From: Thermosulfuriphilus ammonigenes
Lineage (GTDB): Bacteria; Desulfobacterota; Thermodesulfobacteria; Thermodesulfobacteriales; ST65
NCBI RefSeq assembly: GCF_011207455.1
Contig: NZ_CP048877.1
Coordinates: 674,576-738,575 of the forward strand
Reading direction: 5' to 3'
DNA length: 64,000 bases
Positions within the stretch are counted from its first letter, which is position 1; each line of letters opens with the position of its first letter. The position numbers and the translations under genes were made by a program. Below the pieces are notes generated by a model. It ran no database searches and was not told the DNA's origin. It saw only the letters and a program-made list of their open reading frames with translations. Positions 26,535-32,393 of this stretch are shown one piece after another.

Positions 26535-27989
26535 TCAACCCTGATGTTCCCGGGTGATCTTATCCTCGTCTTCAGAAGACACCTTCTGGCTCTTCAGACC
26601 TTCCCAGATGGTCTTCACCAAATTGAGAATTTCTTTAAGGTGAAATGGTTTCTGAAGAAAATGAATTCGGTGTCCCATTTTGGGGATAGAGATTCCTGTC
26701 TCGTGACCACTTATGACGATAAAATGGGCCCGAGGCGATCGAACCAATGCCTCTTCGATAATTCTTAGCCCTCCCATAGCAGCCATATCCAGATCCACGA
26801 TAAGGATGTCAAAGCCCTTTGGCTCCTTTTCCAGAAGCTCTAGGGCCTTCTCACCCTTGGCGGCGGTAGATACCTGATAGCCATGAAGGGAAAAGGCCTC
26901 TTTGAGAAGATTTCGAATGTAGGTGTCCTCTTCAGCTACCAAAATTCGACACACCCGAGGGGCCTCCGTGGGGAGGTGAGCCCTCTTTTTAACGGGGAAA
27001 ATGATCCGGAAGGTGCTACCTCGCTCGGGGAGGCTCTCAAGCTCAATCTCTCCGCCCATAGATGAAACAAGGGAGTAAGCCATAGAAAGGCCAAGCCCCG
27101 CGCGCTTTTGATCCTTTTTGGTGGTGAAAAAGGGCTCAAAAATGAATTCCTGTAAATCTGGCGGGATGCCTACTCCTGTGTCTTTTATCTCCAGGATGAC
27201 GTTACCTTCGGGGGAGACGCCGGTGGTGATGGTGATTTGACCACCTTCTGGCATGGCATCCACGGCATTGCTTATAAGGTTAAGAAGCACCTGCACTAAA
27301 GCCATGCGATCATAGTGAATGTGAGGCAACTCACGATCCAGATCGCTCTCAAGGATGATTTTCTCTGGAATAAGATCTCTTAAGACCACGAGAAGATTTT
27401 TGATGTCTTGATTGATGTCTCCCAGCTTAATATCGATGGGCTGTCCCATTCCCAGGGTAAGGAGTTTATTGGTAAGCTCACTTCCATGCTGAAGATCCCG
27501 CAAGATTCGGGCTGCCCTCTCCTGGAGTGCCCCTTGAGTCTCCTGTTTCAGGAGTTCCAGTTGCCCCATAGCTCCAGCCAAAAGATTGTTAAAGTGGTGG
27601 GCGATATTGCCGGCAAATCTGGAAAGGGCTTCCATCTTTTTTCCAAGGTGGCGTCTTCTTTCTCGCTCTTCGATAGGAGAGATATCCCGAATTGAGCAAA
27701 CCAGAATTTGTTCTTCTCTTTCAAGCAGGTAAAGCCAAAGGTCGTAGTCTCCCCCTTGGGTAGTGACAATTCTTCGGGCCTGCCCCTTGGAAAGGGCTTC
27801 CTCCAGGGGACAGAAAGCACAAGGGGCATTTTCCCTAAAGAGTATCTGGAAACAAGATTCCCCTTTCCCTTGAATCTGCTGGGCCGCAGCATTTACGAAG
27901 AGAACCTTCCGTGAGGTATCAATACCTACGGAAGGATCTGGTTGGGTGGAAAAAATTTTACATATCTTGGGGTAGACGTTTTGAAACAT
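26535..27989 (-). CDS. Hybrid sensor histidine kinase (PAS-HisKA-HATPase-REC)
   Basis: This 484-aa soluble two-component protein has, in order, a PAS-like sensor (about residues 10-105) carrying C46, C57 and C60; the HisKA helix with phospho-acceptor H131 (GNIAHHFNNLLAGAMGQL); and the HATPase domain with N, G1 and G2 boxes (NLISNAVDAMPEGG, DTGVGIPPD, GLGLSMAYSL). A C-terminal receiver follows with acceptor Asp in ILIVDLDMAAMGG. There is no membrane segment. The CX10CX2C in the PAS domain could hold a metal or heme, or act as a thiol switch. No partner regulator is adjacent. Confidence 0.92.
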   Translation of the reverse strand: MFQNVYPKICKIFSTQPDPSVGIDTSRKVLFVNAAAQQIQGKGESCFQILFRENAPCAFCPLEEALSKGQARRIVTTQGGDYDLWLYLLEREEQILVCSIRDISPIEERERRRHLGKKMEALSRFAGNIAHHFNNLLAGAMGQLELLKQETQGALQERAARILRDLQHGSELTNKLLTLGMGQPIDIKLGDINQDIKNLLVVLRDLIPEKIILESDLDRELPHIHYDRMALVQVLLNLISNAVDAMPEGGQITITTGVSPEGNVILEIKDTGVGIPPDLQEFIFEPFFTTKKDQKRAGLGLSMAYSLVSSMGGEIELESLPERGSTFRIIFPVKKRAHLPTEAPRVCRILVAEEDTYIRNLLKEAFSLHGYQVSTAAKGEKALELLEKEPKGFDILIVDLDMAAMGGLRIIEEALVRSPRAHFIVISGHETGISIPKMGHRIHFLQKPFHLKEILNLVKTIWEGLKSQKVSSEDEDKITREHQG

Positions 27990-28319: not shown

Positions 28320-28562
28320 TCAAAAAACAGGCCGGGAAGAATTGGGCCCGGTTTCTTTAAGGATCTCCTCCAGCGCCCGCTGGATGTCCGGAAGACATCA
28401 GCGTCCCTTAGGATTAGTGTGGGCACAATTACAGCCTCCTCTCTTTTTGGCCCAAAGGATACTCTTTAGAATATTGGAATAGCCGTAGCGTTTATAATCT
28501 TCTTTAAGGTCCTCTAGGGTATAGCCAAAACAGTAGCAGATCATTTCTCTGGATTCAGGCAT
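28320..28562 (-). CDS. CopZ/BFD-like [2Fe-2S] protein, candidate selenoprotein (in-frame UGA, U55)
   Basis: An 80-aa gene starts at ATG 28560-28562 with a GGGAG site and stops at 28320-28322. Codon 55 (28398-28400) is TGA. The protein reads MPESREMICYCFGYTLED at the start, has GGCNCAHTNPKGR before the UGA, and then continues U55-CLPDIQRALEEILKE. The CxC...CxC...(C/U)C layout and the NPKGR-x-C motif match the N-terminal [2Fe-2S]/zinc domain of CopZ and BFD-like proteins, where a Cys occupies the UGA position. A 6-bp hairpin with loop GGGC starts at the 20th base after the UGA. There is no C-terminal copper-binding HMA domain. Read as Sec it is intact; read as stop it loses a cluster ligand pair. 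Confidence 0.72.
28369..28384 (-). other. SECIS-like hairpin in the CopZ/BFD-like gene
   Basis: On the minus strand TCCAGC-GGGC-GCTGGA forms a perfect 6-bp stem with a G-starting tetraloop. Loop distance from the UGA (about 20 bases) lies within the range known for bacterial SECIS elements bound by SelB. Confidence 0.55.
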
Positions 28563-28938: not shown

Positions 28939-28967
28939 TTGACTATTTAGCCAAATGGCTATATAGA
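28939..28967 (+). promoter_or_regulatory. arsR promoter with an ArsR-type operator in the spacer
   Basis: TTGACT (28939-28944) and TATAGA (28962-28967) are separated by 17 bases. The spacer holds the inverted repeat TAGCCA-AA-TGGCTA (28948-28961), so repressor and polymerase would compete. The ATG of arsR follows at 28984, giving an almost leaderless transcript. Autoregulation by the adjacent ArsR is the straightforward reading. Confidence 0.75.
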
Positions 28968-28983: not shown

Positions 28984-29370
28984 ATGAAGAGACTTACCAA
29001 GCAACTTAAAGCCCTAGCAGATGGCACCAGGCTCCGGCTTGTAGCCCTTATTTCAACAAGGCCCTGCTGCGTATGTGAGCTGGCCGCAGTTCTTAATCTG
29101 GCCCAACCAACAATTACCAGACATCTCCAAAAACTTACCGAGGCTGGCTTCTTAGAGTATGAAAGACGGGGATTCTTCCAGATCTATCGCCTCTGTCCAG
29201 CCGACCAAAAGGCTAAGGATCTCCTGGCCCTTGTTATCCCCTCTCTATTGGAAGATCCAGAAATAATGGCCCTCCTTGAGAGGTTCCGCCACCTTAATGT
29301 AGGGCCAGCCTTTTTACGAGAGTGCCCTTCAAAACCTGAGGAGGAGAAGAACGGTGAACTGGAGACGTGA
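28984..29370 (+). CDS. arsR: ArsR/SmtB-family metalloregulator
   Basis: This 128-aa winged-helix repressor has the arsenite-sensing cysteine motif as C28, C29 and C31 (RPCCVCELA, compare ELCVCDL) in the helix before the recognition helix, which reads QPTITRHLQKLTEAGFL. The wing YERRGFFQIYRL follows. It should release its operator on binding As(III) or a similar thiophilic metalloid. It is first gene of the arsenic cluster; its 3' end overlaps the permease start by 17 bases. Confidence 0.92.
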   Translation: MKRLTKQLKALADGTRLRLVALISTRPCCVCELAAVLNLAQPTITRHLQKLTEAGFLEYERRGFFQIYRLCPADQKAKDLLALVIPSLLEDPEIMALLERFRHLNVGPAFLRECPSKPEEEKNGELET

Positions 29371-30640
29371 GACCTTCAGAATTCTCCTGGGAACAGCAAT
29401 TTTTCTATTCTTTTTCTATTTTCCCCTTAAAGAAAGGGTCTTATCAGGGGCCAGGGAGGCCCTTCTACTCACCCACTGGTATGCCCGGGAGCACGTCATC
29501 TTTTGCCTTATCCCAGCCTTTTTTATCGCCGGGGCCATAAGTGTCTTTGTGTCCAAGGAATCCGTCATGCGCTACCTGGGGCCTGCCGCCCCCAAGCCGG
29601 TGGCCTATGGGGTAGCCGCTGTCTCGGGGACAATCCTGGCCGTTTGTTCCTGCACCATCCTTCCGCTCTTTGCCGGTATTTATATGAACGGTGCCGGCCT
29701 CGGGCCAGCGACCACCTTTCTTTATTCGGGGCCAGCCATAAATGTATTGGCCATTGTCCTTACGGCCCGTATCCTCGGTGCGGATATTGGCATTAGTCGG
29801 GCCCTGGGGGCCATCGTAGCCAGCATCATCATCGGGCTCATCATGGCCTTTATCTTCCGCCGAGAGGAGCAAGCGAGGCTATCCCAATTTGGTAGTGAAG
29901 ACATCCCCCAGGGACGGCCCCTTTGGCAAAACGTCCTTTTTATGGCCACCCTGGTGGCCATTCTGGTGTTTGCCACCTGGGGAAAGGGCACCGGAGTATG
30001 GGCTGAGATTTACCGCCTTAAGTGGCCACTGGTGGCCCTGGCAGCCCTGAGCCTGCTGGCAGAACTTAAGGCCTTCTTCGGCGTAAGGCTTCCCTGGCTT
30101 CTGGCTACAGCAGCGGTAGTAACCGTGGGGGAGATCCTTTTCCCAGGGCATGAAGTCTCGTTTCTTACCGGGGTGTTTGTCCTCTCTCTGGCCCTTTATT
30201 CAACCGGCGGTGAGGCCCGCACTTGGCTTGAATCCTCCTATGTCCTTGGCCGACAGATTCTGCCCCTTCTTTTCTTCGGTGTTTTAGCTGCCGGCTTCTT
30301 TTTGGGAAGGCCAGGGCATGAGGGCTTTATTCCCTCCAACCTGGTGGCTGATCTTGTTGGCGGAAATTCCTTTGCCGCCAATTTTTTTGCCTCAATTTCC
30401 GGGGCCTTCATGTATTTTGCCACCCTGACCGAAGTGCCCATTCTTCAGGGTCTACTGGGGGCCGGCATGGGTAAAGGGCCAGCCCTGGCCCTTCTTCTGG
30501 CCGGACCAGCGGTCTCCCTTCCCAGTATGCTCGTCATCCGCTCGGTAATAGGGGTCAGGAAGACCGCTGCCTACGTGGTCATAGTAATAGCCATCTCCAC
30601 CCTCTGCGGTTTCATCTACGGTTTGATCTCCGGAGGCTAA
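29354..30640 (+). CDS. COG0701/DUF318-family permease (ArsP-like)
   Basis: This 428-aa membrane protein has about ten helices. Two related halves are visible, with conserved PAAPKPVAYGVAAVSGTILAVCSCTILPLFAGIY (SCS/CSC-T region) near residue 75 and the paired segments FLYSGPAINVLAIVL and ALLLAGPAVSLPSMLVI. The family includes ArsP, an organoarsenical exporter, and permeases tied to other metals. Coupling to ArsR and arsenate reductase supports an arsenic or metalloid role, which is inference. The double-cysteine CSC in a membrane helix may bind the substrate. Confidence 0.88.
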   Translation: MNWRRETFRILLGTAIFLFFFYFPLKERVLSGAREALLLTHWYAREHVIFCLIPAFFIAGAISVFVSKESVMRYLGPAAPKPVAYGVAAVSGTILAVCSCTILPLFAGIYMNGAGLGPATTFLYSGPAINVLAIVLTARILGADIGISRALGAIVASIIIGLIMAFIFRREEQARLSQFGSEDIPQGRPLWQNVLFMATLVAILVFATWGKGTGVWAEIYRLKWPLVALAALSLLAELKAFFGVRLPWLLATAAVVTVGEILFPGHEVSFLTGVFVLSLALYSTGGEARTWLESSYVLGRQILPLLFFGVLAAGFFLGRPGHEGFIPSNLVADLVGGNSFAANFFASISGAFMYFATLTEVPILQGLLGAGMGKGPALALLLAGPAVSLPSMLVIRSVIGVRKTAAYVVIVIAISTLCGFIYGLISGG

Positions 30641-30683: not shown

Positions 30684-30920
30684 ATGATGAAGATCAAAGT
30701 CCTAGGTCCAGGTTGCCCCAAGTGTGCCAATCTCTATGACAACGTTGTTTTGGCGATCAAGGAACTCGGCCTTGAGGCCTCGGTAGAAAAGATAACCGAC
30801 CTCGGGCAAATAGCGGCCCATGGAGTCCTCCAGACCCCGGGGTTGGTTATAGATGGAAAGGTTGTCTCGCAGGGAAAGATTCTCTCGGTAGAGGAGATCA
30901 TAAGACTCCTTAAGTCCTAA
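30684..30920 (+). CDS. Small redox-active disulfide (thioredoxin-like) protein
   Basis: This 78-aa glutaredoxin/thioredoxin-fold protein of the MTH895/TM0996 type has its CPKC redox site at C11-C14 (GPGCPKCANLYDNV), the cis-Pro in LQTPGLVIDGKVV, and no signal peptide. Start ATG 30684 or 30687 follows an AAGGAGG. Proteins like this commonly accompany COG0701 permeases. It could reduce the arsenate reductase or deliver a thiol-bound metalloid to the permease, which is inference from the order permease-thioredoxin-ArsC. Confidence 0.88.
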   Translation: MMKIKVLGPGCPKCANLYDNVVLAIKELGLEASVEKITDLGQIAAHGVLQTPGLVIDGKVVSQGKILSVEEIIRLLKS

Positions 30921-30936: not shown

Positions 30937-31344
30937 TTGAAGCCTGAAGTGCTTTTTCTGTGTACCGAGAATGCCTGCCGATCCCAGTTGGCCGAGGCCC
31001 TGGCCAACCACTTCTTCGGCACAAAGGTGAAGGCCTTCTCGGCCGGAGTGCGTCCCAGAGGGGTGCATCCCCTGGCCCAAAAAGTCCTTGAGGAAGTGGG
31101 AATCGATGTCTCCGCCTTAAGGAGTAAGCATCTTGACGAGTTTTCAGGAAAGACCTTTGACCTGGTAGTCACTCTCTGCGATTCGGCTGCGGCCGAGTGC
31201 CCGGTCTTTCCCGGGGCCAAAAGAAGGCTCCATCTTCCTTTTCCTGATCCGGCAAAGTCTGGAGACGTAGAATCCTTCCGGGAGGTTCGGGACCAGATAC
31301 TTCAGAAGTTAAAAGATCTTTTTGATGAGGAGAAAAGAAGATGA
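30937..31344 (+). CDS. arsC: Arsenate reductase, low-molecular-weight phosphatase type
   Basis: This 135-aa thioredoxin-coupled ArsC has the phosphatase P-loop CX5R as C9 to R15 ([11 protein letters not shown]) and the later redox-cysteine segment [16 protein letters not shown] with two cysteines needed for the disulfide cascade. [11 protein letters not shown] closes the active site. It reduces As(V) to As(III), which ACR3 then exports. The start is TTG with a GGTTAAGGAGG site. It follows the small thioredoxin by 16 bases. Confidence 0.92.
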
Positions 31345-32393
31345 AGCGTCCAAGACTCGGATTTTTCGAACGTTACCTTACCCTCTGGATATTTTTAGCT
31401 ATGGTCTTTGGTGTGCTCCTTGGGAAGTTCGTACCTCAGACGGCCCAGTTTCTGGAGCGCTTTCAGGTGGGGACCACCTCCATCCCCATCGCCATCGGCC
31501 TCATCCTGATGATGTATCCGCCGCTGGCCAAAGTCCGCTATGAAGAACTTCCCATCGTCTTCTCCAACAAGCGGATGCTGGCCCTCTCCCTCATCCAGAA
31601 CTGGGTGGTGGGACCGCTCGTCATGTTTGTGCTGGCGGTGCTCCTTCTTCCGGATCACCCAGACTACATGATGGGAGTTATTCTGGTAGGCCTTGCCCGA
31701 TGCATTGCCATGGTCCTGGTGTGGAATGATCTTGCCGATGGCGACCGGGATCTGGCCGCTGGCCTGGTGGCCTTTAATGCCATCTTCCAGGTCTTAACCT
31801 ATTCTCTCTATGCCTATCTCTTTCTCTATGTCATGCCCTCCTTTTTGGGTCTTAAGGGAGTGGTCGTAAAGGTCTCCATGCTGGAGGTGGCCAAGTCGGT
31901 CTTCATATATCTGGGAATTCCCTTTCTGGCCGGCCTGATTACCAACCAGATTCTGCGTCGCACAAGGGGCGACTCTTGGTACTTTACTCGATTTGTCCCC
32001 CGGGTCTCCTGGCTTACCCCCATCGCCCTCCTCTTCACCATTGTGGTAATGTTTTCCCTCAAGGGCCAATTTATCGTAGACCTTCCGGTGCACGTTCTTC
32101 GGGTGGCTCTTCCCTATGTGGGTTACTTCTTCTTCATGTGGTTTGTAACCTTTTTTATCGCCTACCGGATGAAGATCTCTTACCCCAAGACCGTGGCCGT
32201 CTCCTTTACGGCGGCCAGCAACGACTTTGAGCTGGCCATCGCCGTAGCGGTAGCGGTCTTTGGGCTTAAGTCCGGTCAGGCCTTTGCCACGGTAATTGGT
32301 CCTTTAGTAGAGGTCCCCATCCTTATTTCCCTGGTCAACGTGGCCTGGTACTTCCGGAGGAGGCTTTTCGGTGAAGTGCCCAAACCTGCTTAA
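31341..32393 (+). CDS. acr3: ACR3-family arsenite efflux permease
   Basis: This 350-aa transporter has ten predicted membrane helices. Family motifs are visible: [11 protein letters not shown] near residue 30, [14 protein letters not shown] near 55, [18 protein letters not shown] (conserved Cys of helix 4) near 115, and [20 protein letters not shown] near 293. It exports As(III) from the cytoplasm. Its ATG overlaps the stop of arsC by four bases (ATGA). It completes a sense-reduce-export arsenic cassette. Confidence 0.95.

Follow-up and report, generated by a model that had tools for sequence, protein, structure and literature searches.

A short stand-alone predicted selenoprotein related to the [2Fe-2S] domain of CopZ, encoded beside an arsenic operon in Thermosulfuriphilus ammonigenes

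We have analysed a short gene in the window (the whole stretch of 64,000 nucleotides from Thermosulfuriphilus ammonigenes), which, judged from comparative sequence evidence, almost certainly encodes a selenoprotein with selenocysteine (Sec) at position 55, directly before a cysteine. Its product is very probably a [2Fe-2S] protein, as predicted from its relationship to the N-terminal domain of CopZ, and we consider it likely that both predictions hold jointly. The gene is an additional member, of form 1, of a selenoprotein family that had already been predicted.

Results

An earlier note on this DNA had placed a gene at 28320-28562 without giving its strand. The gene is real and lies on the minus strand (Table 1), where it extends from an ATG at 28562 to a stop at 28322-28320 and translates as MPESREMICYCFGYTLEDLKEDYKRYGYSNILKSILWAKKRGGCNCAHTNPKGR-U-CLPDIQRALEEILKETGPNSSRPVF-stop, the 54 codons before and the 25 codons after the in-frame UGA being followed by a terminal stop which is UGA too, with a TAA a few codons beyond. 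The ribosome site described in the note corresponds to a Shine-Dalgarno-like AAGGGAG 8 bases 5' of the ATG, and the minus-strand translation has the layout noted earlier, CxC (9/11), CxC (44/46) and UGA-Cys (55/56). A plus-strand reading of the same interval was rejected because of its in-frame stops.

Table 1. Positions of the predicted selenoprotein gene, its features and its neighbours in the window.
Feature	Position	Strand	Basis or remark
Predicted selenoprotein gene, 80 residues with Sec55	28320-28562	-	Frame; NF047645 and NF045877 profiles; PDB 2hu9; homologues
In-frame UGA, read as Sec55, then Cys56	28398-28400	-	UGA-Cys in one column in 84 distinct homologues
Cys9, first conserved cluster Cys (CxC)	28536-28538	-	Invariant in alignment A3; aligned with NifU
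Cys11, second Cys of the N-terminal CxC	28530-28532	-	
Cys56, aligns with the final cluster Cys of NifU	28395-28397	-	Alignment
Putative SECIS hairpin UCCAGC-GGGC-GCUGGA, 6 pairs, 4-nt loop	28369-28384	-	Comparative counts; RNAalifold
Sensor kinase, downstream of the Sec gene, same strand	26535-27989	-	
ArsR/SmtB-family regulator, divergent neighbour	28984-29370	+	
ArsP_1 permease, related to SaoE and the SO_0444 Cu/Zn exporter	29354-30640	+	
MTH895/ArsE-family thioredoxin-like protein	30684-30920	+	
ArsC-like arsenate reductase, low-molecular-weight phosphatase fold	30937-31344	+	Below equivalog cut-off
ACR3 arsenite exporter	31341-32393	+	Above cut-off

The host genome (2.29 Mb in one contig, 100% complete) contains SelA (633 bits), SelB (393 bits, above cut-off), SelD (376 bits) and tRNA-Sec (76 bits). 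The frame of SelD, which is located outside the window (G000:C1:748881-749804, locus L026), itself holds one in-frame TGA, and SelD is thus probably a selenoprotein as well. The first six relatives found with the protein query contain exactly one in-frame TGA each, positioned in a common column and followed by TGY (Cys). A match was present in 61 of 395 genomes of the phylum, with an in-frame TGA inside the match in 57 of these 61. All 57 genomes with a TGA-containing match possess SelA, compared to 355 of the 395 overall (hypergeometric p 0.0014), which is a modest test given this high base rate. A scan of genome contigs contributed 54 further loci. In total, 84 distinct Sec forms were collected, in all of which the UGA occupies the same alignment column and Cys is always next; cysteines at both -11 and -9 relative to Sec are present in 83 and the motif GRUC in 58 of them. 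Counts on the frame and on the hairpin were made on 58 distinct downstream stretches, and in each of these the frame remains open for at least 11 codons past the UGA, compared to 43 and 33 stretches for the other two frames. Cysteine homologues at position 55, which the note had suggested looking for, exist as well: Cys occupies the Sec55 column in the CopZ_Nterm_CC relatives.

The perfect 6-bp hairpin with the loop GGGC, which had been noted about 20 bases past the UGA, was confirmed, its stem starting 13 nt and its loop 19 nt past the UGA. In PMC13188914, the bacterial SECIS element is modelled as a stem of 4-16 bp and a loop of 3-9 nt with G among its first two positions, at a UGA-to-loop distance of 16-37 nt, and the hairpin fits this model (6 bp, a 4-nt loop that opens with G, 19 nt). 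As single-sequence folding did not return the hairpin as the minimum-energy structure of the stretches folded, comparative counts were used. Numbered from the U of the UGA, the hairpin occurs gap-free and in a single register (stem 17-22 with 27-32, loop 23-26) in 58/58 stretches, and 93.6% of the cells across the hairpin alignment are paired. The covariation that the earlier note had recommended searching for was found over these stretches: four of the six pairs display compensatory changes on both sides, amounting to 14 cells where shuffles would give 1.9. The covariation score of 0.281 was equalled in none of 500 shuffles and was lost when the partner strand was slid. RNAalifold independently recovers five of the pairs, and an Rfam search at a permissive threshold returned chance matches only and no SECIS family. 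The hairpin resides within coding sequence, so that part of its conservation could be driven by the protein, for which 19 Cys homologues served as a control. They argue against this explanation, as at least five of the six pairs together with a G in the first two loop bases occur in 58/58 Sec forms and in 0/19 Cys homologues, and as the mean number of pairs at the hairpin positions is 5.6 in the Sec forms versus 2.9 in the Cys homologues, two of which have five or more pairs. In a comparison of the gene with its nearest relative (L010), a single pair with few codons, dS is about 2.5 before the UGA and about 0.2 over the 15 codons after it, as would be expected if the RNA were under selection. 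The recurrence of this UGA with its frame and hairpin in dozens of further genomes exceeds what chance would produce.

The earlier assignment of the protein to a CopZ-N/BFD-like [2Fe-2S] family was supported by its match to NF047645 (CopZ_Nterm_CC; E 5.6e-13, 49.3 bits, profile 84-137 of 138), which is also matched by 45/45 members of an alignment of Sec and Cys forms (A3), and by Fer2_BFD (PF04324), matched by 42 of these 45 (E up to 1, best 4e-6). The cut-off of 100 bits for NF047645 is not reached, identifying the protein as a relative and not as a member of this equivalog. Similarly, a match to NF045877 (the Csac_0668 family; E 2.8e-5, model positions 99-160 of 161) falls short of membership, its 24 bits lying far below the cut-off of 190, and the motif is UC, not CU. 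These low NCBIfam scores arise because the short protein lacks the region that corresponds to the start of either model. PF04324 itself scores 13.3 bits on the window protein against a Pfam gathering score of 26 bits, and in a search of the relatives its sole match was a selenoprotein homologue, again below the cut-off. CopZ-NT (2hu9) was the only convincing match in the PDB (E 0.0057 by sequence, 5e-4 by profile).

The closest sequence match, CopZ_Nterm_CC, a putative iron-sulfur cluster-binding metallochaperone, has the same cysteine layout but carries Cys-Cys in place of Sec-Cys and an additional N-terminal half. In the N-terminal domain of Archaeoglobus fulgidus CopZ the C-x-C, C and CC positions align, whereas a cysteine at the position of Cys44 is lacking; in CopZ this domain of 130 residues binds zinc too and is joined to a domain for copper binding. 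The protein described here is not a CopZ copper chaperone: it is a stand-alone protein of 80 residues with a single domain, without HMA domain, as recognized earlier, and without the zinc-binding N-terminal part. The zinc binding that the earlier note had mentioned for CopZ is thus inapplicable, only the C-terminal part of the profile being present. The NifU central domain and bacterioferritin-associated ferredoxin have a BFD-like [2Fe-2S] domain with CxC, C and a final Cys followed by a helix; they differ in the absence of a Sec-Cys pair and in having the last two cysteines closer together, by about nine residues. The Sec forms are short stand-alone proteins of about 65-80 residues. Most of the recovered Cys homologues are longer proteins that carry an additional part at the N-terminus, and search patterns that would have admitted a short Cys form yielded none.

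The Sec family occurs widely among sulfate reducers and groups related to them. In a tree of 104 rows, built on few columns and hence of weak resolution, the Sec forms group together with one Cys row inside (89/98 support); this row, L170, sits on a very long branch, which probably reflects a misplacement. Nitratidesulfovibrio oxamicus (L036, L043) and N. liaohensis (L041, L058) each have two distinct Sec gene copies at different loci. Copies on contigs labelled Verrucomicrobia and Synergistaceae (L047, L057) adjoin a Desulfobulbaceae copy in the tree, reflecting either gene transfer or misbinned contigs.

As stated in the earlier note, the Sec gene is adjacent to and divergent from an arsenic operon, whose ArsR, ArsP_1, ArsE-like, ArsC-like and ACR3 genes are located upstream of it (Table 1). 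The ArsP_1 permease scores under both NCBIfam cut-offs (SaoE and SO_0444 exporter). A perfect dyad, AGCCAAATGGCT (28949-28960, plus strand), which lies between the start codon of ArsR and a TTGACT hexamer, is a likely candidate for the ArsR operator of the operon.

Across the family, an arsenic-type gene is present within 6 kb at 25/84 Sec loci compared to 0/20 stretches of 12.2 kb that were taken as controls from these genomes (p 0.002), the neighbourhoods covering 6 kb per side where contigs allowed and the identities of the neighbour clusters being checked on representatives. The markers at these loci are the ArsP_1 permease (20), ArsR (15), the ArsE-like thioredoxin (11), ArsC (9) and ACR3 (5), as well as ArsG/ArsF and ArsM; because markers occur together in operons, the counts per locus are not independent of one another, and one family (f80) accounts for several of the loci. 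At eleven Sec loci a permease-type gene is located at most 300 bases away, often 9-45 bases upstream and in the same direction. The other 59 of the 84 loci have no arsenic marker by clustering and no neighbour in common, and the members in Thermodesulfobacterium, of the same order, are adjoined by unrelated genes. One Cys relative is positioned inside a gene annotated as merA on a planctomycete plasmid, and another on an Enterococcus plasmid, located after ArsR and a heavy-metal P-type ATPase. The planctomycete merA-annotated gene (L192; CP036351.1, 37939-39174) spans the match to the CopZ-N/BFD-like domain.

Discussion

As a selenoprotein family this is not new: a "(2Fe-2S)-binding protein (CopZ family) form 1" with the motif GxUC and a form 2 with the motif CU are already listed in PMC9312934 (2022) and PMC13188914 (2026), where Zhang and Gladyshev 2008 is cited for the CopZ-family entry. 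In the main text of the 2008 and 2016 selenoprotein papers CopZ is not named. With G53-R54-U55-C56 and a CopZ-like BFD domain, the gene fits form 1 (cd10141, CopZ-like_Fer2_BFD-like; Sec directly before Cys, Gly at -2) and is therefore a new member of this known predicted family. Form 2, the Csac_0668 family (NF045877, a model of 161 residues), shares the domain and has its Sec within the same vicinal pair, there at the second position. For the short stand-alone form, the SECIS covariation and the arsenic linkage we found no description in the papers covered, though other papers may contain one; in the two reviews we saw neither a length nor SECIS conservation nor a neighbourhood given for form 1.

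Based on the conservation of the RNA and the presence of the machinery, we infer that the SelB-tRNA-Sec complex binds the hairpin past UGA55, leading to insertion of Sec and to a cytosolic selenoprotein of 80 residues. This protein would represent the [2Fe-2S] half of CopZ-NT with the zinc half absent, and, by homology, a [2Fe-2S] cluster is probably held in a site, rich in thiols and selenol, that is made up of its CxC, second CxC and Sec-Cys pair. Four of the six conserved Cys/Sec residues would ligate this cluster, most likely with Cys56 in the last place, and Sec55 would then lie next to the cluster and be redox-active or bind soft metal(loid)s. The most likely role of the protein would be that of a small partner of resistance genes, in this case those for arsenic, with a function in redox reactions or in metal(loid) handling, and it might be speculated that thiophilic species are reduced or passed on with electrons from the cluster.

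The arsenic neighbourhoods and the Cys relatives near metal resistance support a role in soft metal(loid) handling without proving it. We put the chances of a metal(loid)-related role of the Sec protein at about even, and metal(loid) handling by part of the family is our best guess; a carrier role is a hypothesis. Alternatively, the protein could be a simple, Bfd-like electron carrier of general metabolism, in which Sec tunes the potential and which has no tie to metal resistance. This is a conceivable, if somewhat doubtful, explanation: it would agree with the BFD-like domain in 42/45 members, the wide occurrence in sulfate reducers and related groups and the lack of a conserved resistance neighbour at most loci, but it leaves unexplained the arsenic markers at 25/84 loci, where the Sec gene often directly follows an ArsP_1 permease gene in the same direction, and the positions of the Cys relatives beside or inside metal-resistance genes. 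Given the 59 loci without arsenic marker, a resistance role may also be secondary.

The earlier note had further placed the UGA at a cluster-ligand position, which is not established. In the alignment of Sec and Cys forms C9, C11, C46, U/C55 and C56 are invariant and C44 is nearly so, yielding six candidates for four ligand places. When the NifU of a relative, which has exactly four cluster cysteines, is aligned, its CxC corresponds to C9/C11, its third Cys to C44 and its last to C56, and a Thr occupies the Sec55 column. On the basis of this sequence alignment, homology favours C56 over U55 as ligand. Moreover, the CxC at 44/46, both cysteines of which occur in 83/84 Sec forms, could supply the third ligand without Sec. 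That Sec55 is itself a ligand, resulting in a naturally selenocysteine-ligated [2Fe-2S] cluster, thus appears unlikely, even though the position next to the cluster region is invariably Sec or Cys, CopZ has Cys at both residues of its CC pair, and the two sister families place Sec at either residue of the vicinal pair, indicating that the whole pair is under selection. More speculative still would be a natural Sec-ligated [2Fe-2S] cluster in a dedicated small protein handling arsenic or other soft metal(loid)s.

A genuine stop at codon 55, in a decaying gene or through a sequencing error, would be compatible with a single in-frame UGA within an otherwise intact frame but can be dismissed, since the UGA recurs in one column in 84 distinct homologues, the frame stays open beyond it in all 58 stretches, the hairpin is kept and covaries, and the Sec machinery is complete. 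The earlier note, which had proposed a selenoprotein gene, had named an unconserved downstream frame or a genome without Sec machinery as signs of decay, and the opposite was observed for both.

Beyond what had been predicted for the family, our analysis contributes a strong RNA signal, a stand-alone form that is short and always contains Sec, and a frequent arsenic-resistance neighbourhood. The gene belongs to those selenoprotein genes that standard annotation may truncate at the UGA or overlook. As every short form found carries Sec, this form is useful as a marker and as a case for examining why Sec is retained over Cys. If the predictions are true, the protein would provide a very small and easily expressed model for Sec beside, or ligating, an iron-sulfur cluster, and the arsenic linkage offers a function that can be tested.
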